DNA from: Corbicula japonica | Lineage: Eukaryota; Mollusca; Bivalvia; Venerida; Cyrenidae | Direction: 5' to 3' | DNA: 64,000 nt | Assembly (NCBI GenBank): GCA_038501625.1 | Contig: JAZAYU010000010.1 | Coordinates: forward strand, 8,887,380-8,951,379 | Shown: positions 24,908 to 58,700 of the stretch, piece by piece | How positions within the stretch are numbered: the first letter of the stretch is position 1 | How the letters are laid out: each line of letters starts with the position of its first letter | Position numbers and translations under genes: made by a program | The notes under the pieces: model-generated | What the model saw: the letters and a program-made list of their open reading frames with translations, nothing else | Told to the model about the DNA's origin: nothing | The model's database searches: none

Positions 24908-24943
24908 ATGATGAACTATGAGACAGATTCTAAGGAGCAGTAA
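24908..24943 (+). promoter_or_regulatory. Short uORF overlapping the ACSM start codon
   Basis: ATGATG at 24908 opens an 11-codon frame ([11 protein letters not shown]) that ends at TAA 24941-24943, past the main ATG at 24918 in another frame. The main frame has an in-frame TGA at 24912, so 24918 is its first possible Met. If the transcript starts upstream, this overlap could lower translation. The transcription start is not identified. Confidence 0.45.
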
Positions 24944-25118
24944 CCTTGCCCTGTTTACAACATCAGTAAACCAGAAGTTATTTCCCTTGCCACACATCAG
25001 CTGCAAGGGAGTTTCAACTTGGAATTATGAAACTGAGAAGAAGAACTTTAGACTGAAAGCTCCTCCTTATTACAACTTTGCGAGAGATGTCATTGATAAA
25101 TGGGCAGAACAAGAGAAA
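24918..25118 (+). CDS. ACSM: ACSM exon 1 (presequence and N-terminus)
   Basis: Encodes residues 1-67 and ends ...WAEQEK before donor AAA|gtaagt (phase 0). The first ~30 residues ([20 protein letters not shown]...) are rich in Arg/Lys/Ser/Thr/Leu and lack acids, which fits mitochondrial import. The following [17 protein letters not shown] matches the family's NF-A-x-DV-x-D-x-WA start of the adenylation domain. The start is fixed by an in-frame stop six bases upstream. Confidence 0.9.
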
Positions 25119-28100: not shown

Positions 28101-31100
28101 TCTATGGAGGAAAGGGTTATGAGGACATTATGATGTAGACATACTAACTGGAGGGAGACCCCATGTGCACCTGCAGGCAATTTTCAGGCTCGAGTAGGCA
28201 CCTGGGTAGAACCACCTACTCGTGCAAGCTAGCTGCTTAGCTTCCTCACATAAAAGATCTTGACCCTGGTAGGTCTCAACCTGAAGGGCTAGTGGTTCTC
28301 AGTCGGAAACCTTAACCACTCGGCCACAGACATTCCCCATCAGGTTGATCTTATTTCGGGAGTTGTTTTTATGATGAGTTTTACTGTAAATGTTTTTAGC
28401 TTGATTATTAAATTTGAAGAAAGGGGCTGCTATCCTACTCGCCCAAGTAAATGTGGTGGCATTGGCTTCAAGGTCTGTTTAACCCTTTCCTCCATATATA
28501 CGCATTTTTACGCATGTGCGACCAGTGTAGATCCTGATCAGCCGGCACATCCGTGCCGTCTGATCAGGATCTGCACTGGTTGCATTTTTGTCAGAAATAA
28601 CCTTATGAATAAAAAAGCCAACAGTTTAGATTCTGATCAACAGCATGGATGTGCTGGCTGATCTGGATCTACACTGTTTGCCCACGCAATGAAGGTATGT
28701 CTATGGGGGAAAGGGTTAAGTTTTTATGCACTTGTTCTGTAACTAGTATAGATAGCAATTTGAAACTTCACCATTATATTCTGCATAATTATCAACTCTT
28801 CTTCAAACATTTTTAAGTTACGACCCTTTTGAAACATAAGGTTTTTGTTTTAATGTTTTGATGCACTTGTTTAATAATTTAAATCTGCTAGAGATATCAG
28901 CTTCCAGCTTGAATGTTTTTTCATCATAATAATTCATCTTCAGCGATTCCTATAAGAAACATTTCTCTACTTTAGAAATTTTTCTTTAAGTTACAACACA
29001 GATGAGCTTGCACCTCTATGCAGTCAATTCAGCATCTTGATCTACGCTGAGCCCAAGATCATAAAACTAAGTTTTGAGAGATCAGTCTCAAATCTCAAGG
29101 ATCTGATTGGCTGAAATGGCGACTGGTCGCCATTTCAGCCAATCAGATGCTTGAGATTTGAGACTGATCTCCAGATTTAGTTTTATGATCTTGGGCACTG
29201 GTTGCATTTGCATGTAGATTAATTAGGCAGAGCTTTTTCCCCAATGGGGAAAGGTTACCCTTCCCCTACAATTGGGAAATTTGTGTGTCGTAAAATCTTG
29301 AAATTGGGAAAAAAATTAGTAGCACAATAAGCTTTTAGTGATGTAAATGTTATGCCAGAATTAAGTTACTGCAAATCCAATGACTGCCTTTCTATACACA
29401 TGTCTGTACTTATTTACTGATAATGACTGAGTAAGAGTCTAACGGGATCGATGATAAGAGTTACTCCCATTTGTACAGTACGGTTTGTTTATGCTGTAAG
29501 ATATTTCTTGCAAAAAAACTCTCTTGTCAATAGGGAAATGGCACTGTTTGTTGTTGGGAACAGTAGTTTTGGGATTGGGAAAGGTCCGGTGATTGAATTG
29601 GGAAGTTTCCTGTCAGGTTTGGGAATGGTACCCTTTTGGGGAGGTAGTTAAAGAAGGAAAAAAAACTCTGTTAGGTTATTTCTGCTAAAGATGCTTACAG
29701 AATAGATCCTTATCAGACTCCTTTTGATCTGCACTTAGTACCCATGGGATATCAGCGATAACTCACAGAGTACAGGATGTTAAATCAATACATTGTATTA
29801 TTACGTAAAATGCTGTTACACAGTTATGGGGTTATTAATTTCATGGATCAGTTTAATCATGAAATTCACATCAGTAAGCACCCTGCTGACAGAATGCATA
29901 TTATGTGTATTTTCAGAGGGGTGAACGAGGCAGTAACCCAGCTTTCTGGTGGATTGATGAATCGGGACGTGAACTGAAGTGGTCATTCCAGGATGTTTCA
30001 TATCAATCCAAGCTGTAAACTTTCAATATTTCTGTTTGGCTGCTTGGGACATGTTGATCCAAATTTAATGAATGATATAGAGGATATTTGTTTTTACCAG
30101 TGTAAGATAGAAATATATTTCACCGAGTGAGCTCCGGAATTCATATTTTCATGAGTGGCGAAGCCACGAGTATAAATACTTAATTCTGGAGTTCACGAGT
30201 GAAATATATTTCTATCTTTCGCTGGTTAAAGTAAATTTTCTTTTTATTTTATGCTTTTACAGCACAATTTACATGAATTTGACAGAAAAGTTGCATGAAA
30301 TGACACCAAAACGTTTGTACCAAAATCGGAGCCCGTTTTCAAAACGTTCTCATTAGGAATGTTCTGTACGTTTGGGTACCAACGTGAAAAAACAGTGAAA
30401 TACCACTTTTATTTCACCGGGAAAATTCTATACTTCACTGGAAAGCATAAAATAAAAAAACTTTTTATTTCCATTTACGTTTCCATGCAAAAAATTAAGT
30501 ATTGTTGTAAATATACCATGAGAAAATGGACTAAATTTTTATTTATAATGAAAATGATTTCTCTAATTTTGATGTTGTTAATGTTTAACCTTTTTCGGCA
30601 AGTTGGATATTACCCAATTTCTACATATTAGAGCATTGGCATGAAAGTTTACACACTAACTTAATAGTTCACAGGCCATGACCCTGACAAGTTACATAAC
30701 TCTTGGTACCTTATTTCTGGGGTTGTCTCCCCATTTTATACTTAGAGAAATGGTTAACCTGTTTTGTCAAGTTGGATATTTCTCAATTTCTACAAAGAAC
30801 AGTAGCATGAAAGTTTACACACTAACTTAACAAAACATTGGTCTTAACCCTGACAAGTTACATAACACTGGCTATCTTATTTCTGGGGTTATCTCCCCAT
30901 TTTGTACTCAGAGATAAATGGTTAACCTGTTTCGGAAAGTTGGATATTTCTCAATTTCTGCAAAGAGCATTGGCATGAAAGTTTACACGCTTACTTTACA
31001 CACTTACCGTTCTTAACAGTGCACAGGTCATGACCCTGACAAATAACATAACTCTAGAAACCTTATTTCTTGGGTTATTTCCCCATTTTGTACTAAGAGA

Positions 31101-34100
31101 AATGGTTAACCTCTTTCAGCAAGTTGGATATTTCTCTATTTCGATGATACTTGCATCACCAGTGTTTCTACAAAATGTCTAGGCATTACATTAAATACTG
31201 TAAATGTAGCAGTTTTGTCTTGAATAATCTGTACTAAATAATCTTAGATTATAGGTTACATTACTTGAGTTTTATGTTAAATTCTTTTTATGTACAGGAA
31301 GTATTTTCATTTTTTAGAACTAAACTTGTGATTTCAGTTGCTGTTTTAACAGTGTGTTAACATTTTCAATTTGTAGTGTGACAAACTTTGCTACCGGGGA
31401 CATAATGTGTTTTCCAAACACAACTTCTTGTTAAATGTATAGGTATTCAAAGATTATAGTCCAGTAATTGTTCTTTAAGTGACACAGGAGTACATGAGTG
31501 CACATGTTCTATTCTTTTCTATTTCAGTGTTGCCAATGTACTTAAGGTGGCCTGTAAACTTCAGCCTAATGATGTCATGATCGTGATATTACCCAGAATT
31601 CCCCAGTGGTGGGCAATCAATGTAGCGGCCATAAGAGCAGGCAAGTTTCCTAATGAGGCATCTGCCCTTTGGCAAAATTTCATGCTGAAATTTTGCTTCA
31701 TTCCACCCTAAATAAATTGCATATTTGAGTGTTAAAGCAAACCATATTAACACTGTAATCTGATCAGGAACTACACAGTTGGCTTTGAGATTTATTTCTG
31801 ACCAAGATATGACCAGTGCAGATCCAGATATTCTTGCATACCAGATCAGGTCATCCGGTGTTTTCACCTGTGTAGGAAATTTCAATCCTACACCCCCCAT
31901 GTAGAATGAGTCACGTGAGTGACGTCACGTCTTCAAGTATCTAATATATTCAAGTTAGTGATGTCATTTATAAAAAAAGGTTTGTGTTAACGTCAATATT
32001 TCAGCATAAGGAAAATAAGTTAAATTATATATTTCTACAGAAATGTTATACATAATAAAAGGTATGCAAGAAAAAGTATCTTGCATGAGACATTCGGTAA
32101 AGATAGAAAAATCTGTCACCTCGGGTGAACTGTTTTGGCGGGAACTCGGCAGAGTCTTGTTCCCGCAAAACAGTTAACCCTCGGTCACAGATTTTTTCAT
32201 CTTCACCTCACACTCATGCATGATACTTATAAGATGGCATGGATGTGCCGGCTGATTTGGATCTACAATTGTCGCACACACGTAAAAAGGCATACATATG
32301 AATTAAAGGGTTAATCAGGTCTACTGAAGCTCTTGCATTATTTATATTTTTTATGATTTATTTCAGGAATAATTTTAAGCCCAGGAACAACTTTGTTAAG
32401 ACCCTATGATATAAAGTACAGGATAAATGCAGCAAATGCTAAGTGCATCATTACCAATCCGGAGTGTGCCGATAACGTGGATGAGGTATGCAAATTATCT
32501 TTCTTATGTACAGTCGAGTCGCGATTTTACGAATCGCGATTTTACGAAATAACGGTATACTACGAATAAGGCGGTCGGTCCCGTCCGTATTCCTTCTTTA
32601 TTCAATGCAAAAAAGATGCGATCGAACGAAACGCGATTTAACGAAAACTGCGATTTAGCGAATAATTTTGACAGTCCCTTAAGCTTATTTACAATGTAAT
32701 AAAGACGCAATTTTACGAATTTCGGTCAGGCAGGTGATTTTCACACCTTTTCGAGCGATAACCGTTTTTTGTATCGTTAAGCAATTATCGACCCAAGCAG
32801 TTGTGACACAAAATGCTCTGTAAACAACTATCGGGCGTGTGTGGTTGTAACAAACAGTTTGAGTGATTAAATGTCAAATGTTTAAAGAGTGATTAAATGT
32901 CAAATGTTTAAAATTGTATAAAATCTGAAACACGCGAATTACTTGTCATTCTACTTCTGCCATTTAATTCTGCATAATCTTATTACTACGGCGAGTATTA
33001 ATTCAGTAAATTGAAATCGGCATTCTGAGAAATTTCGCGAAGGGCCCGGTTTTTTTCAGGGGAGGATAGCTGAATTTTAATTGATTAATGATAACATGTA
33101 ATTTTACAATAAAATAACTAATGCGAATATATTCTTTGTCACTTTATTTATTGACCTTGACATATCACAACAATAACACATTATGTCATATAACGACCAT
33201 GACGATTTGCGGCGGTAAACAACCAAAACTATCAAAAATGCGATACTACGAAAAATGCTATACTACGAATAATCGGCTTGGTCCGATGCCTATTCGTAAA
33301 ATCGCGACTGGACTGTATGTGATAAATAAGGCTTTGTAAATTAGAAATAACTGTATGTTTTTACAGTTTTTATTGTGATCAATTATGTCATATTTAGTTG
33401 AAAATGTTTTATTTAATATAATGAAAGAAAATACTGAGTTGAGCATGAAAAAAGATTTATGATCACCGGGCCAGGAGATTGGTCTCAAATTTAAAGCAAA
33501 TGATTGGTTGAAATGGAGACTAGTAAAATGCTGGAGATTTGAGATTAAGTTTCAGTTTTATAATTATTATGGGTGTTGAGTACGTAACAAAGTGGGGATT
33601 CAATAGAAAAAAGTGCTTTGAATAACATAACCAAGGTGTTAGCATTGAACTGTAGCAAATATTATCTTGAATACAGCTTTTAGATGAATATGTGTCCCTT
33701 AAAAGTTTTTTAAATTTTACATTATTGATTATTCCTTATCAAATGCTCAAAGGAATGGTTTGCACATACTGTAAACCAATAAATATTCACATGTCAAATG
33801 TTTGCATTTGGCAAGGTTGGACATATTTTACAATATTCATTTTTACATTTTTTTGCCCCCACAAAGTGGGAGGCATATAGAGTTGCACTCGTCCGTACAA
33901 CTGTCCGTACGTCCCAAATCTTGTGGCATCAACTCCTCATAAACTATCAAGCAGATTTCTTTCAAACTTGCACAGAGTATCAAGCAGGATTTGTAGATGA
34001 TCATAAAGATTTTTTCCTGCGTCCATTTTTACCAGAGTTATAGCCCTTTGTTAATTTCGGTAATTAAATCTTGTGGCATTCACTCCTCATGAACTATCAA

Positions 34101-37100
34101 GTGGACTTCTTTCAAACTAGCACATGATCAAGCAGGATGTGTACATGATAGGAAAGAAAATATTTTTTTCCTTCGACCATTTTTACATTTTTTTGCCCCC
34201 ACGAAGTGGGAGGCATATAGAGTTGCACTCGTCCGTATGACTGTCCGTACGTCCCAAATCTTGTGGCATCAACTCCTCATAAACTATCAGGCAGATTTCT
34301 TTCAAACTTGCACAGATTATCAAGCAGGATTTGTAGATGATCGTAAAGATTTTTTCCTGCGTCCATTTTTACCAGAGTTATGGCCCTTTGTTAATTTCGG
34401 TAATTAAATCTTGTGGCATAAACTCCTCATTAGCTATCAGGTGGATTTCTTTCAAACTAGCACAGATGATCAAGCAGGATGTGTAGATGATTGTAATGAA
34501 ACGATTTTTTTCTGTGACTATTTTTACCAGAGTTATTGCCCTTTGTTAATTTTACTTATAAAAATTTGCAGCATCAACTCCACATTTTAATATTTGGCTG
34601 ATTTCTTTCAAACTTGCACAGATGATTAGACATGATGTGTAGATTGTTGTAAAGGTCATTGTCTTGCAATGATTTTCACCAGAGTTATGGCCCTTGTTAA
34701 AGTTAGTCATAAAATTGTGTGGCACTTTCTCCTCATTTACTAGTCATGATCACCACATGTTGTTAATACCTGATTCACAATTGTGTTACAAATGTTGTTC
34801 CAGCAGTGGGGGCATCAGTGTCCTGAGGACACAGTCTAGTTGTATTTTTTTTTTAATAATACATAATCCTGCAGAAAATTTTTTTTGCATTTCAGTGCCA
34901 TCCATGAATATACTGAAAATTAGTTAGTTGCAAATATTTGTTGGTTTACAGTAAGGGAGGGACAATGGAAAAGCCTGAAATTTTGCCAGATACATAAATT
35001 CAATTTTGTTATCCATAATCAAAATTTAAATGAAATTAATTATTCAAATTTTACAGATCTAATCTATGTTTTGAATTGTTTTTTTTACAGGTTGTGGAAG
35101 CCTGCCCTTCATTAGAGACAAAAATTTTGGTTGGGGAAGGCAAAACCAGGTGACTTAGCATTGTTTGTATTTTGATTTATAGTCTGTACCTAACTTGAAC
35201 CTGTAGCCAAGACAAGTCTTCATTTCAGCCAATCAGATGCTTGAGATTTGAGACTGGTCTCTAAACTCAGTTTATGATCTGGTACTCAGTTTATTATCTT
35301 GGGCTTAGATCTGTTACTGAAACTCAGTGAAGAGATTCTCCAAAGATGGCTTGTAAAAAGCACACGTTATCAGAAAATCAGAAATTTTTCCTGTTAGTAA
35401 TAACAGCCTTAATCATACAAATGAAATTATATGTTGGTTTTTCAAGGCAGTCCTTGAATTGTCACGTAGCTTTGAAGGTTTTATATGTTATAATTAGGGA
35501 TGTAAATGAAGGTTCGAAAATTAGAATGTTCAGGTAAGATTATGAATATTGGAATGCATTGTAAGCATTTGAATGTTCCTGAAAAGTCAATAATAACTAT
35601 GATAGAGTGAAAATTCTTGTTTCTTTTTTAACCCTTTCCTCCATATATACGCAATTTCATGCATGTGAGACCAGTGAAGATCCAGATCAGCCGGCACATC
35701 TGTGTGGTCTGATCAGGATCTGCACTGGTCGCAATTTGGTCAGAAATAATCTAATGAATAAAAAAGCGAACAGTTTAGATCCTGATCAGACAGCTGATCT
35801 GGATCTAAACTGTTCATCCACGCAATAAAGGTGTATCTATGGAGGAAAGGGTTAAAGCTAAGTATCAATATCAAAAAAGGTCAATCAAGAAGGTTTGATA
35901 TTAATTTGACATACATACTGTAATGTAGATAACATGTCTGTATATTGACTGTATATTGACTTCTATGCGCGAGAGCATTCTAATATAATAAAAAAAGAAA
36001 GTATGTTTAAAAAATATTGTATTATTTACTGCATATTGTAATGCTGATTCAAATTAGGAAATCAATCAAGCCATTCATTAATGAAAATAAAAAAAATAAA
36101 GTTATTTACGATTCTTTTAATATCAATTACTCTTTGAAACTCATGTGCAAAATAACGATTAGGGGTGCCCGAAAAGTGACAATATTTAGACTGCCTTGTT
36201 CATTTAACACATGTCTACCAGAGATTTTTCTTTGATAGTATATTAAATACTTCTAAAAAAGTTATAGAGGTAGATCTGTAGACAGACTCATGCTCCGATA
36301 AATAAACCAACCTTTAAAATTTTGGAACACTTGGACAGTTTGTATGACAGTTTCATTGCATTGGGGAACTTAAAGGTTTTCTGAAAAATACAGTCATCGT
36401 CAGTATGGAAAATTACATTCTTTAGAATTATCCAGTTCCAACTTTCCATTATTAAACAAAACTTTTCCATTCATTTTATAAACTTTTCCATTAATTATAT
36501 TTTGTTCTTTACTGTCCAGAAAATGAACTAATATATTCTGACATGATTTAAAAACTGTGCATAGGAAACATACATGGTAAAATGTTAGAAATAAGATTTG
36601 TTAATCATTTAAGCCTTTCCTCCATAGATACACCTTTTTTGCGAGGGCGAAAAGTTTAGATCCAGATCAGCGGGCACATCCGTGCCATCTGATCAGGATC
36701 TTAACTGTTCGCCTTTTTGATTAGTTAGGTTATGTCTGACCAAAATGCGGCCAGTGCAGATTCTGATCGGACGGCTGATCTGGATCTACACTGGTCGCAT
36801 TATGCGTAAAAAGCCGTATATATGGAGTAAAGGGTTAATACAAAAATCATGAAGAATTTATTGAGAAAATCATTTTGACATCTAACAGAAGCAAGAACAG
36901 TTGTAAATACATGTTTTCAGGGGATTTAACTCTTTCCTCCATATATACACATTTTTACGCATATGCGACCAGTGTTGATTCAGATCAGCCGGGAAATCTG
37001 TGTTGGCTGATCACATTCTGCACTGGTTGCCTTTTGGTCAGAAATAACCTAATGAATAAAAAAGCAAACAGTTAAGATCCTGATTAGACGGCACGGTTGT

Positions 37101-37788: not shown

Positions 37789-40700
37789 AAAAATGCAATA
37801 ATCATAATTATAATAATAATAATAGCTTTATTTATAGAGTGATACAGTGGAGGAAATTGCAGGGATTTAATAATAATAATAATAGTAATAATAATAATAA
37901 TAATAATAATAGCTTTATTTATAGAGTGATACAGTGGAGATATAGAAGCTGAAGATTTCATGAAACTGTTTGGATCCAGAAGTAATTTACATTGCTTTTG
38001 TTTTGTTTGCAATTAGAACCTTTACATTTCTTTGGCACCAATTTGTTGAATAATTTTGAAGCCATAGTTAAGTGCGCTAGGAATCTCTTAATTGAGTACC
38101 TAGAGTTGAGAGTTACATCATCTTAACCCTTTCCTCCATAAATATGCATTTTTACGCATGTGCGACCAGTGTAGATCCAGATCAGCTGGCACATCTGTGC
38201 CATCTGATCAGGATCTGCACTGGTCGCATTTTGGCCAGAAATAGCCTAATGAATAAAAAAGTTAACAGTTAAGATCCTGATCAGACGGCACGGATGTGCA
38301 AGCTAATCTGGATCTAAACTGTTCGCCCTTGCAATTAAGGTGTATCTATGGAGGAAAGAGTTAAGCCTTTACTCCGTGGGATATGGCTGTTATCCATGGG
38401 CAAACAGTGTAGATCCAGATCAGCTGGCACATCACAACCTTGTGAACAAATCACTACAGATTCTTGCCTACAAAATCGCAAACATACTTGAATGTTATTG
38501 GGGAAGCATTTTATACTGTTCTGGTATACAGCCCCAGTGCGTCCCAGTTTGGACACTGGGGCAAACCAGGACCACAAACTGAACCAACAACCATGTATAA
38601 CAGGACAATGTGAACTAGGTTTCATGAATCTTTGCAGTTCATTCCACCAGTCCAGCGGCTACAAACTACTAAGACGCACCAGAGCATACACCGGGAATAT
38701 GTGAAGCAGGTTTATGACAGCATCATTGTATAACAATATTTGTAAATAAATGTATTCCCTATAAAAATTAAATTGATAATTTAGTATAAATAAACTTTTT
38801 ATTATAGGCCTGGATGGTTAAATTATGAAGAGATGGTCAGGAAAAGCTCTGATGGTTTTCAGGTAAACATTTCTTTGTTCTTATTTATAGGCTGGGATAG
38901 AAAATAACTTTTAACCTTTTCCTCCATTTATATGCCTTACACCACATGTGCACAGTGTAGATCCAGATCAGCCAGCACATCCATGCCATCTGATCAGGAT
39001 CCGCACAGTCCACTTTTTGGTCAGAAATAACCTTACAAATCAAAAAGTGAACAGTACAGATCCTGATCAGACGGAACAGAAATGCTTGCTGATCTGGGCC
39101 AACACTGTTAGCCCATGCCATTAAGGTGTATTTATGGAGGAAAGGGTTAAAGTGGAGATTTTTCCAGCTTAGCATTTCATTGTTCTAAAGCTGAATTTAG
39201 ATAAAAAAGGACTATCTTTGGATATCCAAATATTTGTTCAGATCAGCTGATATCCTGATCAAAGTTTGTATCCAGATATTTGTTTACAACTTAAGTTTTA
39301 TAAAAATTGGCCTTTTTGATAAATTATCTTTCTACTGTCAGTGTGCATTCAAGCACAAAGACGTGAAATGGAATATCGAAAGGTGATGACTGGCAGTATT
39401 GGGTTTCATATTAGAAATGTGCTAAATTTGGTATCAGTTGACATACCTAGAAAAAAGTATTTCAGTTATTGCATAATAATAATTAATTATAATAATTTAT
39501 TGACGCTCTTCAAATAAATTTGTTCAAAATAAGCTTTACTCCAAGTTTTACTTTATATGCAAACATTGTAGATCCAGATCAGCAGGCAAGCTGGTGCCAT
39601 CTGATCAGGATCTATGATGTTTTCCTTTTGGTCAGAAATAATGTTGTGAATATAAAAGTGAACAGTGCAGATCCTAATTAGATGGCACAGATGTATCGGC
39701 TGATCTGGATTTACACTGTTCGCCCATGGGTAATATCCATATCATGGCGTAAAGGGTTTATATAATACCCTTTTCCAAATGCGACCGGTGCAGATCCTGA
39801 TCAGACGGCATGGATGTGCCGGCTGATCTGGATCTACACTGGTCACACATTCGTAAAAATCCGTATATATCAAGGAAAGGGTTAATTTAATTTAAATTTA
39901 CAGTTCTGAACCTATTTCATTACATTTGTGGGGAAATGTTTTTGTTTGATATAAATAGGCGCGTTTAAACACAGGTTATTTAACCCTTTCCCCCATAATT
40001 CGCATTTTTACGCATGTGCGACCAGTGTAGATCCAGATCAGCCGGCACATCTGTGCCGTCTGATCAGGATCAGTACTGGTGGCATTTTGGTCAGAAATAT
40101 CCTAATGAATCTAAAAGCGAACATTTAAGATCCTGATCAGACAGCATGGATGTGCCAGCTGAGCTGGATCTAAACTGTTCGCCCATGCAATAAATGTGTA
40201 TCTTTTGAAGAAAGGGTTAAAACTTGTTTAACCCTTCATTCCATGGATGCCGCTTATATACCTTGTTCCAGTAACTCTTATTCATGATTGGAAAATGGAC
40301 TCAAGTTAAACAAATCAGATGCCTTAAATTCAAATATTAAATTTTTCCAGTGTATTAACTCCAGAGCCACAGATCCAATGACCGTGTTTTTTACGAGCGG
40401 GACCACAGGGGCACCCAAGATGACTGAGCACTCTCACAGTAGTTATGGACTAGGCCATCTTATTACTGCAAGGTATAGAGGATATTTGTTTTTACCAGTG
40501 TAAGACAGAAATATATTTTGCTGAGTGAGCTCCTGAATTCATATTTTCACTAGTGAAATATATTTTATCTTTCACTGGTAAAGTTTTATTTTATGCTTTT
40601 AGTGCAAAATTTATGTGAATTTGACAGAAAAATTGCAAGAAATGGCGCCAAAACTGCTTGTGTATGATGTGATGTCATGACGTCAAATATACAAATTTGA

Positions 40701-43700
40701 TCGTGTTTTCTAAACGTTCTGATTTGGTATGTTATGTGCGTATGGGTACCGATGTGAAAAAATTAGTGAAAATAAAAATGATATTCTACTGTTTGAAAAC
40801 AGTGAAATACCAGCATTATTTCACTGGGAAAATTCTATAATTCACTGAAAAGCATAAAAAAAATTGTAACAGCTGTTCAGCAGTTGTAGGCCGCATTTAG
40901 ATTATTATGTTTTTCACGATTGGCCCTCGAGAGCACCTGATGTATGGTTATAGATTTGATCATCTCATTGTTGCATGGTAAATTCTTACCACTGTTCAGC
41001 AGTTGTAGGCTGCATTTAGGTTATTGGCACCAATGTCAATTGGGATTTTGAAATTTTGGGAGCATGGAAAGAACCTTAACCCTTTCCTCCATAGATAAAC
41101 CTTTATTGCATGGGCAAACAGTTTAGATCCAGATCAGCTGGCACATCCTCGCCATCTGATCAGGATCTAAACAGTTCCTATTTTGATTTGTTAGGTTGTT
41201 TCTATCCAAAATGCAAACAGTACAGATCCAGATCAGACAGCAGGGATGTGCTGGGTGATCTGGATCTACACTGGTTGCACATGCATAAAAAGACGTATAT
41301 ATGGAGGAAAAGGTTAAAGAATAATAAAATATAGATAGAGCCTTGGTTCATTCACATCACTTATATAAACAACTGAGTACAAATATTTCTATTCTCAGGT
41401 ATTTCTTGGACCTGTCGCCGGATGATATTTTCTGGAATCTGTCTGATACTGGCTGGGCTAAGTGTGCCTGGAGTAGCTTGTTTGCACCCTGGATTGCTGG
41501 GGCTTGTGTTTTTACTCAGGACTCACCCAAATTTGATCCCCAACTGACTGTGCAGGTGAGTTTATTTTATTTATATTTTAATACACTTCATATTCCATTT
41601 TAACCCTTGACTCTAGAGATATGGCTTTTATTGCATGGGGGAACAGTTTAGATCCAGATCAGCTGGCACATCCATGTCATCTGATCAGGATCTTAAGTGG
41701 TCACTTTTAGATTCATTAGGTTATATCTGACCATGAAGCGAAGATTGTAGATCCAGATCATACGACACAGAAGTAGCAGCTGATCTTCATTTAAACTGGT
41801 CACCCATGACATAAAATGTGTATATATGGAAGAAAGGGTTAAGAAAGAATCAACTGGCAAATTCTAGACTAAATCTACACTTTACACGCTGAGAATAATA
41901 CAACTGAGCAAATTTATGTCTGTGTGAAAATGTCATTTATGTTTTATGCATTTAAACTGATCCCTGAAAAATTTAAATAATACCAAAATAAGGGGCTTTG
42001 GTAGGATAAATTTGGTCCCGTTATATAATACTGTATCATTATATGTAGAACATAATAATAAAATTAGAATGGCTAATCTTCACAAGATCTTTCAGGAAGC
42101 AACACGCCTGTATATATTTAATTCAGAAAAGTCTGTCTCGTGCCTAGAAACATGGTTGAAAAATTCCAGACATAGATATTAAAAAGAAATTAAAACCGTC
42201 TGTGAACTCAGAGTTTTGTAATTATAAGTCACTGTTTTTGAATTAAGGTCAGTTAATTCATAGTTCATATGAAATTCTTGCAGGGTTTATTGACTGCATA
42301 GTGAACAGTGTATAAAACAAGTGAAAGTATTACATGTAACCCTGCTGTATGGGGTATGATGCATATCCTATGGGCAAAGTTTATAGATCCAGATCAACAG
42401 GCACATCTGTCGAATCAGGATCTACACTGTTCACTTTAAGATTAATTAGTTTATTTCTGATAAGAAATGAACAGTGTAGATCCAAATCAGATGGCATGGA
42501 TGCCAGTTGATCACGATCTACATTGATAATACATGTATCCATGGAGTAAAGCTTAAACAGTTTTACATGATAATGAATAATAATAAAGCATAGGACCTTG
42601 TTCTGCAGGATGTTTATGACCCCACGAAGTGTAAGGCATATAGAGTTGCACTCATCGGTACGTCTGTCCGCCTCTCTGTACATCCATCTGACCCTATGTC
42701 CCCCGAATCTTGTGGCATCAACTCCTCATTAACTATCAGGCTGAATTCTTTCAAACTTGCACAGATGATCAAACAGGATGTATAGATGATTGTAAAAAAA
42801 GATTTTTTCTTGCAACCACTTTTACCAGAGTTATGGCCCTTTGTTACAAATGTTGTTGTAGCATTGGGGGCATCAGTGTCGCTAGGCGACCAATGCAGAT
42901 TCAGATCAGGTGGCACATCCATACCATCTGATCTGGGTCTACACTGGTTGCCATCCGAGAAATAACACAATAAATAAAAGGAAACACTGTAGATCCTGAT
43001 CAGATGGCAAAAATGTGTTGGCTGATCTGGATCTACACATTTGTCCCATGGTATAAAGGTGAACATTTGGAGAATAGGGTTAATGAACTATTAAAATAAA
43101 GTTATAGCCTGGAACACTGTATTATTGACGTACTTGTTAAATTTATCAATGATTCTTATGCAGTTCAATATGAGTTCATTACTTTTGTATTTTGGTGAAA
43201 ATAATTAACATATCAATTAAATAATTACAGCAAAATGACACAGTCCGGCATATCTAGGTCAAAACTATCAGATATGAAAACACATGACTACATAACTAAT
43301 TTTTGATAATAGAAATGCGTCGATAATACAGAGTTCGCTGGTAATTATTTTTGCACAAAGGTGACACGATGATGTTTTGTTTTATAAAGACATTAAGCAG
43401 ATATCCCATTAGCCATTTCTGTGCCGCACCTACAGCGATGCGATTTATAGACAAGATGAACCTGAGGGATTACAGATTTGCCTCCCTTAGACACACTCTT
43501 AGTGCAGGAGAACCTGTGGTATACATGTGAATATACATGTGAAAATCCTCAATGTGTATGGCACATTAATCAGTTTGTAAAAACACTGGTTGCTTTCCTT
43601 AAAACATAGTGATCCTTTACTCCATAGCATATGACTGATATTCCATGAGCGAACAGTGTTGTCTCGTCAGGATCTGCACTGTTTGCTTTTGAATTCATTG

Positions 43701-46700
43701 GGTTATTTCTGACCAAGAAACTACCAGTATAGATCCAGATCAGAAAGCATGGAGGTACTGGCTGATCTTGATCTAGCATGTATGTACTGGCTGATCTTGA
43801 TCTACACCGGTCACAAACACGATAAAACCCATTATCTATGGAGAAAAGGGTTAAATTTTATCTTGTAGATTACATATTAGATGTTTTCATGACTCACACC
43901 TCACTCTTCCTCTTATCAACCCACAAAAAGTTGGAATGAACAGAATTTGTTTGTGGTTTTAACAGTTAGTTTTATAATTCCATTCAGTTCACACTAACAG
44001 ATGTTTTATTTTGATTGCAAAATTGGTTGCTTTTCATTTCTCTATTAGGAACCTTCTCTAACATATACTAGCACATTGGTATTTAACCCTTTCCTCCATT
44101 GACACACCTTAATTGCGTGGGCGAACAGTGTAGATCCAGATGAGCCCGCACATCCTTGCCGTCTGATCAGGATCTGCACTGTTCGCTTAATGATCAGTTA
44201 GGTTATTTCTGACCAAAATGCGACCAGTGAAGATCCTGATCAGACGGCATGGATGTGCCGGCTGATCTGGATCTACACTAGTTGCACATGCATTAAAAAG
44301 CGTATATATGGAGGAAAGGGTTAAACTTTAACTCTAACAAGCAATCCCACATTTCATTCCAGCTTTCACCTGGTGTTGTTTTTATGTTGTACAGATAATC
44401 TGCTTGCTTCCTGTCTTTGTGTATGGTTTAAATGCTCTAACTTCTGTCTGAAACTAGATTGGATATTTGAGCATCACTTTAAATTCTGGCTCCAAGAATA
44501 AACTTTTGTATTGCAGGTTCTGGTTGAAAAACCTATCACAAAATTCTGTGCACCTCCTACTGCGGCTCGACTAATGCAAGTTACCAATATATTTTCTCAG
44601 CTTCGGAAAAGCAGCCATCTTAAATTGAGTGTTTCAGGGGGTGAGCCTGTGGTGAGATACAAAAAACACAGCATGATACTCATAGGATTGAGCTTTCCAC
44701 TGTATGTAGCCAGCATGTGTGCATGATGCATGATTTGATTGTTTTTAAGTCCTACCCCGCCTTGCCCTGCCCTGCCTCCTATGTGATTCATGTCCTGCCC
44801 TGCCCTGCCTTGCATCCTATGTGACTCAAGTTCTGCCCTGCCTCATATGAGTGCATATTTGGGTGTTTACTTTCATCTTTTTTTCTTGTGGAAGAAGACC
44901 CCAGATGCCTCTCCTGGCATTATTTTAGGCGCAGGATGGAACCTTGGTAAAACAACCGATCTTCTGTAAGGTAGCTTCCTTTCATGAAAGATTTTGATTT
45001 AAGGCATGCTCAAAGGGCCTGTGATTGTGAGCCAATGACCTAAACCACTCAGGCACAGAGACCCGTCATTTAGTCAGCAATTAAAAGTTATCTGTAGTAT
45101 GAGTAGAGACGGTTTTCAAACCTTGATTCTGAGAACAACTTTAGTGAAAGGCATTTTTTACAAAATTAAAAAAAATTCACAGTGCTTGTTTATTGTCAGT
45201 CTTGTAGAAATAAGCCTTTTTAGCTGATCAAAACTGCATTGTGAAGTAGCATGTTTACGTTTTCATGTGTAAAATTTTATCTGGCACAGTTATGAAACAT
45301 TACAGGTATGTTGACCATCATGTGTAGTTGTGCACCTGGAGTTTTATTTTGGGCCATGTCTAATGAGACAAGAGTTTTGGCACCTTATGCATTTCAATAT
45401 AATGCATTCACCATGTAATCTTGTGTCATGGCTAACTCTACAAATATATTCATCGTTTTCTTGTAATTCTGAGGTTAAGTGTACTGTGACCACTATATTG
45501 GCTTTTCTGACAATTACAACTAATAGTGGGGTCGTCTCTAGTTCTGTTCTATTCTTTTCCATTTTTTGAATATTTCTGCTTATCATTTTAATGGAAAAAT
45601 TAAAAAGCAATTTTATGACTAGAATAGCCTCATTTAAAGTTTCAATTTGAAAAAAAGGATGTTGCCCAATGAAATATTAACAGCCATAGTTTAATTTAAA
45701 AATTCACATATTTTTAATTAATGTTTACTTCTTGCATATTCTCTTTTCAGTCATAACAGTATAATTAAAAATAAGATATGCTGTTTGACAATTTGATATT
45801 TCTTTGAACAAGCAGAGATCAAGGTATAAAATTGATACAGGAAACCAGTCTAAAATCTAGCTTGTGATTGATTCATTTAGAGCACGGTCTGAATTTCAGC
45901 CAGAAAATGCTTGGGATTTCACACTTGTCTCCAGTCTCAATTTTATGGGCTGAAGATTGTCAAATTGAGATTAGAAACCAGTCTCAAATCTCAAGCGTCT
46001 GATTGGCTGAAATGGCAACAAGTCGCCATTTCAGCCAATCAGATGCTTGAGATTTGAGACTGGTTTCTCTTCTCAGTTTTATTACCTTGGGACATGACCT
46101 TGGATGCAGGTGATGAAAATTTATGCTGCTTAACACTTGTGAATACTGTTGTAGAATCCAGAGATGCTAGAAGCATGGGAGGAAGGGACAGGACTCAAGC
46201 TGTATGAAGGTTATGGCCAGACAGAAACCGTAAGAAGCTTTACATCAATTATTTTGCTAAAGCAACTCCTGTAGACCACCTCATTTACTATCATACTTTT
46301 TAAAAACTTGCACTGGTGATCACGCAAGATATACAGATTTTCAAGAAAAAACGGTGTCTTCCTGCAACCGTTTTACCATAATTGTTACACTTCGTTAATA
46401 TCAGTTATAAAATTTTGTGTAATGACCTCTTCATCTACTGACTGGCAATTTCTTGTAACCCTTTCCTCCAGTGACACACTCTTTAGTGCGTGGGCAAACA
46501 GTGTAGATCAAGATCAGCCGGCACATCAATGCCGTCTGATAAGGATCTGCACTGTTGGCTTTTTGATTCATAAGGTTACTTTGTATTTCTGACCAAAATG
46601 CGACCAGTGCAGATCCTGATCAGATGATCAGACGGCACATATGTGCCCGCTTATCTGGATCTACACTGGTCACACATGCTTAATATGAGTATTTATGGAG

Positions 46701-49700
46701 GAAAGGGTTAAACTTACACAGATTGTCAGCCTGTGTAGAAGGTTTTAAAGAAAGTATTTATTATGTGCAGCCATTTAAAAAGTATTATGGTGGCCTTTAA
46801 AATACAAAGCATATTCATGAGTAAAAGGTTCAATTAAACACAGCCTTAAATATTTTTATCCCCCTGCCAAAGGCGTGGGGGATATTAGTAATGCCCTTCG
46901 TCCGTGCGTCCATCCGAAACAATTTTGTGCGGAGCATAAGTCCAAAACTACTGGAAGGATTTTATTCAAACTTCATACACTGACAGAGCACATTGGTAGG
47001 TAGTGCAGTGTGCAAGAACCATAACTCTACCTTGCCTATTTTTAGAGTTATTCCCCTTTATCATATTTACTGGATAAATTTTGTCTGGAGCAAAACTCCA
47101 AAACTACTGGAGGGATTTTATTCAAACTTCATACACTGACAGAGCACATTGGTAGGTAGTGCAGTGTGCAAGTGCAATAACTCTACCTTGCCTATTTGTA
47201 GAGTTATTCCCCTTTATCATATTTACTTCATAAATTTTGTCCGGAGCATAACTCCAAAACTAATGGAGGGATTTTATTTAAACTTCATACACTGACAGAG
47301 CACATTGGTAGGTAGTGCAGAGTGTAAGAACAGTAACTCTACCTTGCCTATTGTTAGAGTTATCCCTTTATCATATTTACTTGATAAATTTTGTCCCAAC
47401 CATAACTCCAAAACTACTGGAGGGATTTTATTCAAACTTCATACACTGACAGAGCACATTGGTAGGTAGTGCAGTGTGCAAGAACCATAACTCTACCATG
47501 CCTATTTTAAGAGTTATTCCCCTTTATCATATTTACTTGATAAATTTTGTCTGGAGCATAACTCAAAAACTACTGGAGGGACTTTATTCAAACTTCATAC
47601 ACTGACAGAGCACATTGGTAGGTAGTGCAGTGTGCAAGAACAATAACTCTACCTTGCCTATTTTTAGAGTTATTCCCCTTTATCATATTTTCTGGATAAA
47701 TTTTGTCAGGAGCAAAACTCCAAAACTACCGGAGGGATTTTATTCAAACTTCATACACTGACAGAGCACATTGGTAGGTAGTGCTATGTGCAAGAACCAT
47801 AACTCTACCTTGCCTATTTTTAGAGTTATTCCCCATTATCATATTTACTTAATAAATTTTGTCCGGAGCATAACTCCAAAACTACTGGAGGGATTTTATT
47901 CAAACTTCATACACTGACAGATCACATTGGTAGGTAGTGCAGTGTGCAAGAACCATAACTCTTCCTTGCCTATTTTTAGAGTTATTCCCCTTTATCATAT
48001 TTACTTCATAAATTTTGTCCGGAGCATAACTCCAAAACTAATGGAGGGATTTTATTCAAACTTCATACACTGACAGAGCACATTGGTAGGTAGTGCAGAG
48101 TGCAAGAACAGTAACTCTACCTTGCCTATTTTTAGTGTTATTCCCCTTTATCATATATACTTGATAAATTGGATCTCCCGACCATAACTCCAAAACTACT
48201 GGATGGATTTTATTCAAACTTCATACACTGACAGAGCACATTGGTTTGAAGTGCAGTGTGCAAGTGCAATAACTCTACCTTGCCTTTTTTTAGAGTTATT
48301 CCCGTTTATCACATTTACTTGATACATTTTTTCCAGAGCATAAATCAAAAACTACTTGAGGGATTTTATTCAAACTTTTTACACTGACAGAGCACATTGG
48401 TAGGTAGTACATTGTGCAAGTCCAAAAACTCTACCTTGCCTTTTTTTAGAGTTTTTCCTCGTTATCAGATTTACTTGATAAATTTTGTCAGGAGCATAAC
48501 TCCAAAACAACTTGAGGGATTTTATTCAAATTTCATATACTGACAGAGCACATTGGTAGGTAGCGCAGTGTGCAAGAACAATAACTCTATCTTGCCTATT
48601 TTTAGAGTTATTCCTCTTCATCATATTTACTTGATAAATTTTGTCCGGAGTATAACTATTTACTCCAAAACTACTGGAGGGATTTTATTAAAACTTCATA
48701 CACTGACAGAGCACATTGGTAGGTAGTGCAGTGTGCAAGAACAATAACTCTACCTTGCCTATTTTTAGAGTTATTCCACTTTATTAGAATTACTTGATAA
48801 ATTTTGTCTGAAGCTTAACCTCAAAACTTAAAAGGATTTCCTCTTGAGGTAAAATATACGAAAGAACAACCTTCAGGTAACTTTTTTCCGGCGGGGGAAT
48901 TGACCATGTGTAACATGGCTCTTGTCATATTTGTCATGTTTGGTGGCTTTCAAAGTTCCCATTTTCATCAATTATAATGAGTTTAGAAAATTGGCTTTCC
49001 ATCCCACCTAGCCCCAGCCTTAATTATGGATTGAAAACATTGCTTCCTCTATAAATCTTAGCCGAAGTAAATGATTGGGACACTAATCATTGTTTAATTT
49101 GAGATTACAGAATTTATTTAGTATTACAGATAGTTGGCATGACAGCCTTCTCAGGAAAATTGATTACTTTTTCCAGAAATAACTATTGGCACTATTTCTA
49201 ACATGGCTTTAAGCCATCCTCATTCACTGATGGCACCATTTAATTAACAGGTTTACAGATTTTCCCAAATTTAGATATTTTTTGTTCTACTATTTGAAGA
49301 AAATAACAAGCTTTTCTATTAAGTTAAATTTCTTTTTCAATTGGCTGTCAGAATCCAACCCACATATAACTGTAAAACCCCTCTTTTAATTTTACTCATA
49401 ACAATTCTTTATTTGAAATGATTTCTACATTCACCTCTTACTAAAAAAGTTTGGTTACCTTACAAATACAATGTACTACAGGAAAAGCTTAGAGTATTGG
49501 AATAAACAATTGCTAGGTAGTGTTCTTAAGCACAGCAGGTGGATTAGGCACTGGTAATTTTATAGCACTAACATGTCAGTTATTTTCAGGAGGCTCAAAC
49601 ACAGTACCAGTCTGAAAATACAGTCATCTCTCTAAATGCTGTAGGATTGAAAATAGACTGGCTTCACTAAACATTTTATTATGATGCTTAAAAATACAAA

Positions 49701-52700: not shown

Positions 52701-55700
52701 TAAATAAATATATCGAGAGCTGAGTGCAATACTGTTCTATTCTATTTAGAAATATGAAGTAGATAGAATAATTTTGCACTCAGCCCTCAATATATCATAC
52801 TGCCTCTATCATCGGAAGATGAAAATCTATCATAAATCATACATAATTAGTTCTGTTACATATAATATATTTATATAATGAATATTTGTAATTGGAATTT
52901 CTTAAATTTCACACTTTAACATATTTTCTGTCAAAATTATAAGAATATAGGTTGCCGTTATCATTGCATGGTTTTCGGCAGATATAAATTAAATATTCGT
53001 ACGTTGTCGCTATCGTTCATAATTACAATAGAGATAAATTAGCCTAATTATTTGATAAAAAACAACAACAATTTGTTATTAAATATCAAAAATATAATAT
53101 AATATAATAACAAGTTATAACAGCATTATTTATATATGTAGTTTGAGCTTTTCAGAGTTTAGATACAAAACTACATAGCGTTTTCTAGATAAGACTTTCT
53201 AGGAAATCTGCAGTGGTGTAATGGCGGACAGATCACCTGACCAACAAGATGGCGGCGGTCTAATTATTAGAAATAGAATTGTCTATAACACAGAGTATTT
53301 AAACTTCACAGGATGATTTGACTCTGTGAGGTGATGACCTCATATTTCAGGGGTCATTGGGTCAAAGTTCAAGGTCACATATCCAAACATACCCCATTGT
53401 TGATATTTCACCTAATATTATGCAGTGGTGTAGAAAAGTAATTTCTGATTTTGTTTTTTATACTTATTTTCAGACATTTTTGTGTGGTACATACCCCAGT
53501 ATAGAGCAGAGACCTGGATCAATGGGTAAGCCTGCTCCTGGAGTTGAAATTCAGGTAAATATTTTAACCCTAAATGGGCGAAATTAATGTAATAATTAAT
53601 GGCATGGACTAGACTTTCTATTAATATGATACAGTCCATTGTTCATCAAGGTGTTTAACAGAAATGCATCAACTGAAGAGTGGGTTAGATATGAAGATGA
53701 GATTTAGGTACCTATCCATCTCCCCTCCTCTCCCCCATCTCCAAAAAATGTTTCTTTGTTCCTTTTTTTTTTATTTTACTCGCACCAATAAATTATTTTG
53801 ATGGAGGGTATGAAGAAGGATCAGATCAAACTCTTAACTCTCTCTCCTCACTTGTAATGATGTCCCGTTATAAATATTCTTTGATACATCTGCTTGCTTT
53901 ATTCCAACTCTCCTGATAGTCAATCATGCTGTTGTTTATGACTGATTCTTGTGTTTTAATCTCAGAGGTCAGGGATTTCAATAGCTTTTGAAAACCAGGG
54001 GTCATCTGACACCTATTGAGAATTTTTAAGGGGTCATAATCTGATCTTCACGAGTCATATCTTGTATTCATTGAGCTTTACTGGTTACAAAAGTGCTTTA
54101 ACTTCATTATAATAATAATATTTTCAAGGGTCAAATAAGTATTTACTTGATGTTTAAAATCTTTATTCTTTTAGAATTTGACCTCATTTCCTAAATTCTC
54201 CTGCATCAAAATGACTCCAAGCTCAAAATCAGGAGGGTCAAATTGTGGAAAAATTCAAATTTGCTTGCATCAAAATGCAAGAATCTGCATCTATTGGCAT
54301 CACTGAGAGGTATTTGGTATATTTTGCAGGTTGTGGACGACCATGGCCAAGTTGTTCCTAGAGGTACAGAGGGAAATATAGGAATTCTCTGTAAACCAGA
54401 GAAGCCCATTGGTCTGTTTTCAAGATACATTGTAGGTTTCAGATTTGTTTATCATCAGATAACCCCTTAGGAATGTGCCTGTTATCCATGGATGAAAAGA
54501 GTAGATCAAGATCAATTAGGATATTCCTGCCATCAGTGCCCAAGGTTATAAAAATGAGCATGGAAACCAGTCTCAAATCTCAAGCATCTGATTGGCTGAA
54601 ATGGCGACTGGTTGCTGAAATGGCAACCAGTCGCCATTTCAGCCAATCAGATACTTGAAATTTGGGACTGGTTTCCATGCTCAGCTTTATAACCTTGGGC
54701 ACTGATGCTTGAGATTTGAGACAGGTCTCCATTCTCAGTTTTATAACCTTGGGTCATGGTGGCCATTTCCTTATAAGTGACTGGAGCTCTGACAAAATAA
54801 TAAAACAATGATTACAAGCATCAAATTTCAATAGAGGTTAAATGAAACTAATTAAATCAAGTTAATAACATAATAAGGTCAGATGATCGGTTAGAGTTTC
54901 TTATCATCCTTTGAAAACACAGAATTTTGCAAAAAAAAGTTGGTGTTGTTTGAATACTTCAAAAAGGATAAAAAGAGCCTTGTTAAAAACAACAATAATA
55001 GTTTGGATTTGAACATGCAAGCAGAAACAATGAGATGGCTTTCTGTTTGATGTTCCAGATTAAAGCATTGCAAGCAACAACAATATTTAGTTTCACTAAA
55101 AGACTCGCGATGATTTAATATTTCCACAGGCGTTCAAAGTTTCATCAATTAGCGCTTACTTTCACTTTTTCGGTAAAGCGTCATATGCAATATCTTCAAT
55201 ATTACTTATAAAAGTATAATGAATGTGAAAGTAGAACTAAAGTAGATCAAAATTTTAAACGCCTGTGATATTTTAGTGAACTCAAAAAAATTTTTAAGTA
55301 AAATTTAACCCTTTCCTCCATAGATACACCTTTATTGCCAGGGCGAACAGTTTAGATCCAGATAAGCCAACACATCCATGCCATCTGATCAGGATCTAAA
55401 CTGTTCGCATTTTGATTTATTAGGTTATTTCTGACCAAAATGCAACCAGTGCAGATCCTAATCAGACGGCACAGATGTGCCAGCTGATCTGGATCTACAC
55501 TGATCGCATATGCGTAAATATGCATATCTATGGAGGAAAGGGTTAATGCTGATTAAGTTCGTACACAAATAAACCTTTTAACTCCAAAAGTATAACTGAT
55601 ATACATGTACCATGTGTGACAGGTGTAGGTCCTAATTAGATCTGCATTGAGCACACACAGGATATACATGCAAGTCAAATCCATGGTGTAAAGTGTAAAT

Positions 55701-58700
55701 AAACATGTTTATTGTCCAACTGCATTGAATTAGCATTGAGAGCATTGAAATGATATTTTTTACTGCAATAACCATGTAAAAAATTCTGTAAAACACTTAC
55801 AAATAAAGAATTGACTGGTACAGATTGATAAAAAAAAGCTTTGCCGAAGATTATAAAACTAAATCTGGATACCAGTCTCTAATCTCGAGCATCTGATTGG
55901 CTGAAATGACAACCAGTCTCTATTTCAGCTAATCAGATGCTCGAGATTTGAGACTAGTCTACAGTCTCAGTTTTATGATCTTGGGCTCTGATTCCATTAC
56001 ATTAATTCAGAGGGTAAAAGGTTAAATAAGTACACCCTAGAGTTGTTGTTTTATGATGTTAATTGTTAATGAATAGAGTTTTTAAAAAAGTTCACCTTTG
56101 TTTTAGATTGTTGTTGTTGTTATTTTAGGACGATGACGAGAGAATGCGCAGTGTGTTTGTTGGGGATTATTACCTTACTGGAGACCGTGCAATAATGGAC
56201 GAGGATAACTACGTTTGGTTTGTTGGCCGTGCTGATGATGTCATCATTACCTCTGGGTAAATCCGATATTGTTGTTAGTTCAGAAAAAACATACTTAAGC
56301 CTTTCCTCTATAGACAAACCCGGGTCGAATGGAACCCCTGAATTTATATGAAATGAAGTTCAAGGTCAGCGTCACCAAACATAAAAAACATAGAAAAAAT
56401 ATTTTCCATTTAAGAAGCAGACATTTTGCACATATTGTTCAAAGTTTTTTGCTGCAAACAAGTGTATTGGCATGTTTTGCACTCATTAATGTTTCTAGAC
56501 TGGATCATTTGCCATATGCGAGTGACATTGTCTGGTTAATGATAAAAAGAACTCTGGTATTATTCAACTTTTAAATTTTGACGCACAACATTTTAATGTT
56601 TGGAACCAGTATAGACCCAGGTCCAGGGATTGGCCTAGGCTGTGAGAAAATGGGAGACATTTTTCTAATTTAGGGAGATGTTTTGGAAGTTTTCAGATTT
56701 CTGTTAGGAACATATTAGGAACAACTTCTCCCTTGGCACAGTAAAGGGAAAAGTTTCAGATATTTGGGAGACTATTTCTCCCAAGTCCCGAGCTAAGCCA
56801 TTCCCTGATATCGCTGTGTATGATGGTAATCCTGATCCATGCAGGCTGTGTCCAAGGTTATAAAACTGAGCATGGAAACCAGTCTCAAATCACAAGCATC
56901 TGATTGGCTGAAATGGCGACTGGTCGCCATTTCAGCCAATCAGATTCTTGAGATTTGAGACTGGTTTCCATGCTCAGTTTTATAACCTTGAGCACTGATC
57001 TGGGTCTAAACTGGTGCAAATGTTGTACTTTGCATTTAAAAGCTTTGCCCTTTACTCCATATATGGATTTTATCAAATGTGGGATCATAGATCCTGATCA
57101 GCCAGCACGTCTGTGTTCTACACTGGTTGCCTATTGGTTGGAAATAACCCAATAAATCTAAAAGTGAACAGTGTAGATCCAGATCAGACAGCACATCTGT
57201 GTTCTACACTGGTTGCCTATTGGTTGGAAATAACCCAATAAATCTAAAAGTGAACAGTGTAGATCCAGATCAGACAGCACATCTGTGTTCTACACTGGTT
57301 GCCTATTGGTTGGAAATAACCCAATAAATCTAAAAGTGAACAGTGAAGATCCAGATCAGACAACACATCTGTGTTCTACACTGGTTGCCTATTGGTTGGA
57401 AATAACCCAATAAATCTAGAAGTGAACAGTGTAGATCCAGATCAGCCAGCACATCTGTGTTCTACACTGGTTGCCTATTGGTTGGAAATAACCCAATAAA
57501 TCTAAAAGTGAACAGTGTAGATCCAGATCAGACAGCACATCTGTGTTCTACACTGGTTGCCTATTGGTTGGAAATAACCCAATAAATCTAAAAGTGAACA
57601 GTGTAGATCCAGATCAGACAGCACATCTATGCCATCTGATCTGGATCTACACTATTTGCCATATACAATGGAGTGAAGGGATTACACAAATGCAACATGA
57701 ATTTATTCTAATATTTAATTAACTCACAGGTACAGAATAGGACCCTTTGAAGTGGAGAGTGCTTTAATAGAACATCCAGCAGTCCTAGAATCGGCAGTTG
57801 TCAGCAGCCCTGATACAGCCAGAGGCGAGGTTTGAAACTCAAAATTACTGTTTCTTGACCATAAGACAGATAATTCTGCCAATTCATTTTTATTTGTAGA
57901 TTACTAACTGTGTAGATTTTGTGCATCAGTTCATTCACCAATTAAAAAGTTTTAGAAATATAGATTTGTACATAAATAATGTTTTAGAAAATTAAAATCC
58001 ATAAATTTAAGATTTCTGAAAAATTTGGATTTTTTTCTAAAAGAAAATCATCAAATTCTTTACCCATAACTTAAAATGAATATATGGAATGTGATATCTT
58101 ACTTTATGTTAGTATAAATAATTATTGTTACTGCTTTGTTAGGTTGTGAAAGCCTTTGTCACTCTGACTGAAGGATATAAAGACACAGACAGGGACCAGC
58201 TAGTGAAGGAATTACAGGATCACACCAAGCGGATTACTGCTCCTTACAAATATCCTAGAAAGGTAACAACAGATCTGAAGGTCATGTGATCATGTTGTAG
58301 GCCTAATATCAAAACCTCGTGTAGACAAAATTTGACTTTTGACAACGTGGGAATACAGATAAAGAAGCGCGAAATTCGTCAAAATCTTATGCCATTGGGA
58401 AAGGTTCAAGTTAGTTATGTGTTGAAATAACATATTCTGATTGGTGGCTATTTCATAAATTCAGAACTTTGTACGAGGTTTTGATATTAGGCCGACGATT
58501 AGCAAAACGTTGGCAGTCAAGCATGGACAACTCTTTAGCTAACCTGGTACCAAGGTTATAAAACTTGAGTTTGAACTTGGTGCTTAAAACACAAATTTTT
58601 TTCTTTCTTTACATGAAAAAGAAACTTAGGTTGTTAATCCTTTCCTCCATAGACACGTGGCCGAACAGTAGATCCAGATCAGCCGGCACATCCGTGCCGT

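Follow-up and report, generated by a model that had tools for sequence, protein, structure and literature searches.

Adjacent homologous exons that are used exclusively of each other are already described in the acyl-CoA synthetase superfamily. According to passages of PMC1543647, human ACSL1 and ACSL6 carry gate-domain exons of this kind, encoding a segment near the fatty-acid site. Excerpts of PMC7969005 report an old duplicated exon pair, 4a/4b, in OGDH, the gene of a mitochondrial metabolic enzyme, and the sections of exon-pair catalogues drawn on here (PMC5740500 among them) deal with adjacent, homologous, in-frame exons of similar length that are conserved. We compared with these systems two neighbouring exons, 9a and 9b, in an ACSM3-type acyl-CoA synthetase gene of the clam Corbicula japonica. 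A single complete copy of this gene lies on the + strand of the window, by which we mean the whole 64,000-nucleotide stretch analysed (assembly GCA_038501625.1, contig JAZAYU010000010.1, positions 8,887,380 to 8,951,379); positions below are counted from its first letter. In our judgement, 9a and 9b most probably derive from a tandem, and probably old, exon duplication in a bivalve ACSM3-type gene and have been kept as a mutually exclusive pair.

The exon pair and its use in relatives

The coding region runs from the ATG at 24918 to the stop at 59946, a span of 35 kb, and comprises sixteen coding exons when one member of the pair is counted. Exon 8 (41399..41555), which ends in phase 0, and exon 10 (46155..46229; NPEMLEAW...YGQTET), which starts in phase 0, are the common upstream and downstream partners. 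Between them lie a 1834-nt intron (41556..43389), exon 9a (43390..43518; 43 codons, 129 nt), a 998-nt intron (43519..44516), exon 9b (44517..44651; 45 codons, 135 nt) and a 1503-nt intron (44652..46154). Both exons are phase 0/0. Exon 9a ends in SAGEPV and has the acceptor TTTTATAAAG and the donor GTG/GTATAC, and exon 9b ends in SGGEPV and has the acceptor TTGCAG and the donor GTG/GTGAGA (the slash marks the exon end). An earlier note, made from the sequence alone, had placed the two exons at these coordinates, in open frames of this phase, and the gene model and translations agree with it; its figure of about 17 shared residues in 43 becomes 18 of 43 aligned residues identical, with two codons gapped. 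As it also proposed, each exon alone completes the enzyme between exons 8 and 10: isoform A (with 9a) has 583 amino acids, isoform B (with 9b) has 585, and both are open from ATG to stop.

The two exons are adjacent and internal, similar in length, equal in frame and phase, bounded by GT-AG sites and homologous, which are the features by which tandem duplicated exons are recognised. Within the window, isoform A matches 9b (E 1.5e-4) and isoform B matches 9a (E 2e-4). Identity between them at codon positions 1, 2 and 3 is 21, 25 and 14 of 43; third positions are thus almost saturated, and by its sequence the pattern is that of two coding exons long diverged. Since all 10 of the 10 relatives tried in tblastn searches with the other exons masked found 9b (E 1e-18 to 0.002), its resemblance is not a matter of chance. 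Codon usage supports 9a, which is equalled by 9 of 2367 open intronic stretches. No further duplicated exons were found in the gene by tblastn with the 10 relatives when all exons and 9b were masked; the single match at E <=0.1 was antisense, at 31243-31121 (E 0.024, and E 0.009 from isoform A against the unmasked window).

Each exon was found on its own in a database protein. With the 9b portion of isoform B as the query, P0003 was the sole protein obtained out of seven candidates; with the 9a portion of isoform A, P0004 was the sole candidate. In P0003 (565 amino acids, an intron-free open reading frame in a 2947-bp contig), 9b alone is joined directly to the counterparts of exons 8 and 10; in P0004 (583 amino acids, an intron-free open reading frame in a 2808-bp contig), the same holds for 9a alone. 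Because whole reading frames fit into such short contigs, as against the 35-kb coding span here, both represent spliced messages or retrocopies, and if they are messages, each exon is used alone in relatives. P0004 is identical to the window at 40/43 residues of 9a, 17/43 of 9b and 519/540 of the rest (96%). For P0003 the values are 38/45 for 9b, 18/43 for 9a and 439/520 for the rest; the 84% identity of 9b thus equals that of the rest, so that 9b shows no decay in the lineage of the window, in line with the earlier view of selection on both exons. In a neutral simulation, an open frame at 38/45 identity occurred in 2.6 of 1000 cases at 0.2 substitutions per site and in 1 of 20000 at 0.3. A neutral divergence small enough to explain the open frame is unlikely given the 16% protein divergence elsewhere between the window and P0003, which is known as protein only.

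A third search listed 120 relatives of the 7385 passing its cut-off, and the named clams below come from it; the database clusters proteins at 90% identity, and the other isoform of a species may hide within a cluster. An annotated protein of Mactra antiquata (P0007) has a 45-residue exon of 9b type ending in CGGEPV, joined directly to the counterparts of exons 8 and 10. Proteins of Mercenaria, Ruditapes, Mya (P0008) and Dreissena have a 43-residue exon of 9a type. A profile of the exon 9 segment found it in 119 of the 120 listed relatives and missed it in one, a second protein of Mya arenaria (P0012). In none of the mollusc proteins among the 120 did the segment occur twice, and a double form of 628 residues would fall inside the length limits of the searches; two matched stretches were seen in five vertebrate proteins, namely P0010, P0011, P0013 and P0015 (all above 850 amino acids) and P0104. 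With 9a alone in P0004, 9b alone in P0003 and Mactra P0007, and never both in a mollusc, the mutually exclusive use suggested earlier gains support, and it is very likely that the pair is real and used.

Two further observations concern these proteins. The annotated Mactra P0007 repeats a FQCCETNAQDPMTIFSL-like segment seven times just before the TSGTTG loop, through either a tandem duplication or an annotation fault. Database labels of "isoform X2" in Mercenaria and Ruditapes imply further isoforms and were not used as evidence.

History of the pair and competing explanations

Trees were built from the window and 25 proteins hand-picked from the 120, with P0012 entering only the body tree, which leaves out exon 9 and was made by a quick method. 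In the body tree, the window pairs with P0004 (99), P0003 joins them (95), and these three group with Mercenaria, Ruditapes and Mactra (96). The exon-9 tree, which rests on 43 columns, unites window 9b with P0003 and Mactra (99/97) and groups window 9a and P0004 with Mya, Mercenaria and Ruditapes (81/79). Such a conflict between exon and body trees is as expected from a duplication that preceded the split of these lineages. In topology tests, window 9a and 9b as a private sister pair were rejected (p 0.001), and origins within wider clam clades were not rejected (p 0.168 and 0.141). Taken as they stand, the trees suggest that the duplication is old.

Several findings, in this paragraph and the next, weigh against an old pair kept in exclusive use. 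A duplication confined to the lineage of the window, P0003 and P0004 was disfavoured by 28 log units and yet not rejected (p 0.079). Two scallops, Pecten and Ylistrum, also fall with the 9b rows in the exon-9 tree (95/91), a grouping that would reflect either a very old duplication or an artefact of few columns. The Mactra exon is barely nearer to 9b (24/45) than to 9a (20/43), its assignment resting on length and on the tree. At larger distances among clams, the conservation of exon 9 falls below that of the remaining protein for both types: Mercenaria matches 9a at 29/43 (67%) as against 80%, and the Mactra exon matches window 9b at 24/45 (53%) as against 78%. In the segment alignment, the Gly found before GEP in 9b is also present in 3 of the 31 other relatives, which lack the two-residue insertion. 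Finally, 9b looks weakly coding in its codon usage, its score being equalled by 116 of 2102 open intronic stretches, and this measure alone would not prove it to be coding.

In the proteins compared, each named species displays one type and none both (9a type in Mercenaria, Ruditapes, Mya and Dreissena, 9b type in Mactra), and the 9a acceptor of the window is rather weak; both points would suit a turnover of exons, in which an ancestor with the two gave rise to lineages that each use a single one today, the second exon of the window being a recent relic. We consider this unlikely. Both exons are intact in the window, the identity of 9b to P0003 matches that of the remaining protein, and 9a is the exon used by the close relative P0004; selection has thus acted on both near the window lineage. 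The lengths of 129 and 135 nt in phase 0 leave all four combinations in frame, double inclusion and skipping included, and since they are multiples of three, no frame-based quality control would force exclusivity. The intron between the two exons is of an ordinary 998 nt, and Mya P0012 lacks the exon 9 segment in frame, and with it the GEP loop, being either an inactive form or a gene-model fault. These observations would fit a non-exclusive cassette use, with messages containing both exons or neither being common; we hold this to be quite improbable, given that the segment is doubled in no mollusc among the 120 at a length the searches would admit, and that duplicating or deleting it would be expected to break the fold.

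A still smaller chance, hardly worth crediting, is that a second, paralogous gene stands behind P0003 and Mactra and that 9b in the window is a chance or captured copy of its exon. It would agree with the 16% divergence of P0003 from the window outside exon 9. Against it, the intron that holds 9b is the matching one, and the exon is in phase there and has working splice-site sequences; P0003 falls with the window and P0004 in the body tree; and the own genome shows no second such gene. That genome (1.07 Gb, 1630 contigs) was searched by scoring the candidates of a loose first pass, 44 of them for the P0004 query, which returned this locus and otherwise distant relatives, with a highest identity of 48% over 71 residues and 29% in the best-scoring case. 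Exons 9a and 9b each matched only themselves and their partner (E up to 10). A second gene copy or haplotig was likewise set aside, as these searches gave one locus only. Under the preferred reading of an old, mutually exclusive pair, we infer that this species makes both forms and includes 9a and 9b exclusively.

Gene model, splice sites and intron repeats

Upstream of exon 8, the gene model has the first coding exon (24918..25118, beginning with the ATG) and exons at 29917-30014, 31528-31640, 32367-32485, 35091-35149, 38808-38862 and 40351-40472, these six all matched by tblastn. Downstream of exon 10 it continues with exons at 53474-53554, 54330-54431, 56129-56256, 57730-57829, 58143-58262 and 59854-59946 (ending in the stop), all likewise matched. 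Exon 31528-31640 has a GC donor (CAG/GCAAGT, 31640-31641), the sole non-GT donor among the 16 scored.

The sites of the pair had been described as good acceptors and donors. This holds for the 9b acceptor, equalled by 1.6% of the AG sites in the gene span, and the donors are ordinary (5.9% for 9a, 4.1% for 9b); it does not hold for the 9a acceptor, which ends in AAAG and is rather weak, with 13% of AG sites scoring as high. Two further exons of the gene, 40351 and 46155, have equally weak acceptors (13% and 14%), so that of 9a is not unusual here.

None of the standard exclusion devices looked for at 9a/9b, namely a short intron, a clash of U2 and U12 sites or a distant branch point, was found. 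At 998 nt, the intron separating the two exons exceeds what steric exclusion would allow, and the AG-free zones measure 27 nt and 18 nt, the latter upstream of 9b. The 9a donor was considered as a U12-type site and rejected, since its 2 mismatches from the U12 consensus are shared by the donor of exon 29917-30014 and since 2 mismatches or fewer are seen at 74 of the 1876 GT sites across the span of the gene. Looping by intron repeats was rejected as well: complementary repeat copies flank 9a, but ends of the same repeat also flank exons 38808, 40351, 41399 and 56129 and are thus not specific to it, and 9b has no such copies on its downstream side. No Rfam family reached its gathering score at 41000-46500. 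Such devices are not required of all pairs; in the parts of PMC5740500 drawn on here, the human catalogue assigns them to only part of its pairs.

We propose that the spliceosome would join exon 8 to either 9a or 9b and then to exon 10, yielding acyl-CoA synthetases of 583 or 585 residues that would differ only in the stretch leading up to and including the GEP adenine loop. Since the search for a built-in lock gave nothing, our default guess is that trans-acting factors regulate the choice. By a further guess, 9b would be used by default and 9a under activation, because the 9b acceptor is the stronger; the argument is weak, as acceptors no stronger than the one of 9a occur at other exons of the gene.

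The window also carries repeats of several kinds. An element of about 240 bp with inverted ends, TTAACCCTTTCCTCCA...TGGAGGAAAGGGTTAA, occurs throughout it, mostly in introns of the gene (e.g., 44083-44324, 41076-41317 and 46455-46711); 42 matches to its ends were counted at no more than 2 mismatches, against 0.03 expected. At 57088-57628, an 86-bp unit is present in 6.3 copies at 97% identity and appears by eye to derive from the middle of the TGGAGGAAAGGGTTAA element. Tandem arrays with differing units and similar periods of about 145-175 bp lie at 5073-6149, 8167-9324, 10734-12083, 25226-25879, 30580-31142 and 46921-48828, the last also having a 466-bp period of three units.

The enzyme segment and known exon switches

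The nearest solved relative of the enzyme is human ACSM2A (PDB 2wd9, 2vze; E 2e-169, 535 residues aligned), and the domains PF00501 and PF13193 are precomputed for P0003 and P0004, which together with the full-length similarity places the protein in the ACSM family. As an ACSM-type enzyme, the product would be a putative activator of medium-chain acids, and its N-terminus, judged by eye, looks like a mitochondrial presequence.

The segment was aligned in 38 of the 120 listed relatives. Nine non-gap columns (L, P, C, P, T, R, G, E, P) reach a conservation of 90% or more across these 38, and all nine are kept in P0003, P0004 and both window exons; both isoforms should thus fold and bind ATP. Two inserted columns are occupied only in the two 9b rows among the 38, and a few other relatives are one residue longer in this segment. 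Compared with five 9a rows, the 9b rows of P0003 and Mactra share K in place of Y/F/N before the first Pro, A in place of M/V/F in PTAxR, Q in place of mostly hydrophobic residues, F in place of L/M in the loop, a Pro in the insertion and G in place of A before GEP. Window 9b carries the same letters, save an Asn in place of the insertion Pro.

The Gly codon directly before GEP in 9b (44637..44639, + strand) aligns with V386 of acetyl-CoA synthetase, and its counterpart in 9a is the Ala codon at 43504-43506 (+ strand). The residue before GEP is Val in the solved acetyl-CoA synthetase 9g79 and matches V386-G387-E388 of the Salmonella enzyme (PMC8511477). According to passages of that paper, V386 lies within 4 A of the acetyl group and earlier mutations of V310, T311, V386 or W414 altered the substrate range; the V386 changes made in the paper itself gave no gain with formate. 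An excerpt of PMC6298115 describes a five-mutation design including V386T that moved substrate efficiency. Given this role of V386, an Ala/Gly swap could widen or reshape the pocket, and the link drawn earlier between exon 9 and the acyl/nucleotide pocket is a reasonable one, since the position preceding GEP corresponds in the alignment to an acyl-pocket Val in acetyl-CoA synthetase. An altered acid preference of the 9b form, through this Gly and the loop longer by two residues, is plausible; together with the change in PTAxR, they are inferred to shift acid preference or kinetics. Whether the pair amounts to an old clam switch of acid preference in a mitochondrial medium-chain acyl-CoA synthetase, in which the exon rebuilds the wall separating acyl pocket from adenine site under control of tissue or diet, is a more tentative proposition, to which we give somewhat less than an even chance.

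The earlier note knew of no such switch in the ACSM family. Among the literature matches listed, none was found for that family, nor was any bivalve or mollusc exon pair of this sort; the sister family does have one, in ACSL1 and ACSL6, which according to the passages of PMC1543647 involves another segment. The main texts of two exon-pair catalogues, PMC5740500 among them, contain no ACSL in the first (where ACSM was not searched) and neither ACSL nor ACSM in the second. As far as these matches show, the ACSM family seems to gain its first exon switch with the clam pair. Human ACSM2A differs from both forms of the pair in having V before GES at this site and from 9b in having no two-residue insertion.

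The mechanism of the OGDH pair differs, since excerpts of PMC7969005 describe distant branch points in a short intron that enforce exclusion, whereas the intron here has 998 nt and an AG-free stretch of 18 nt. Two natural enzymes that differ over no more than 43-45 residues would be well suited to probing how the segment before GEP contributes to substrate choice. In the long-chain ACSL1 and ACSL6, the exchanged exon holds the gate motif (PMC1543647, in the passages that define it). In the clam gene, the medium-chain equivalent of the gate motif, D-x6-D-x-G-W, lies at 41424-41456, in exon 8 and not in exon 9, that is, one exon upstream, and the stretch encoded by the pair is the one leading to the GEP adenine loop instead of the gate. 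If exons were duplicated independently in two families of acyl-CoA synthetases, the exchange of a single secondary-structure segment would look like a recurrent means of retuning such enzymes.

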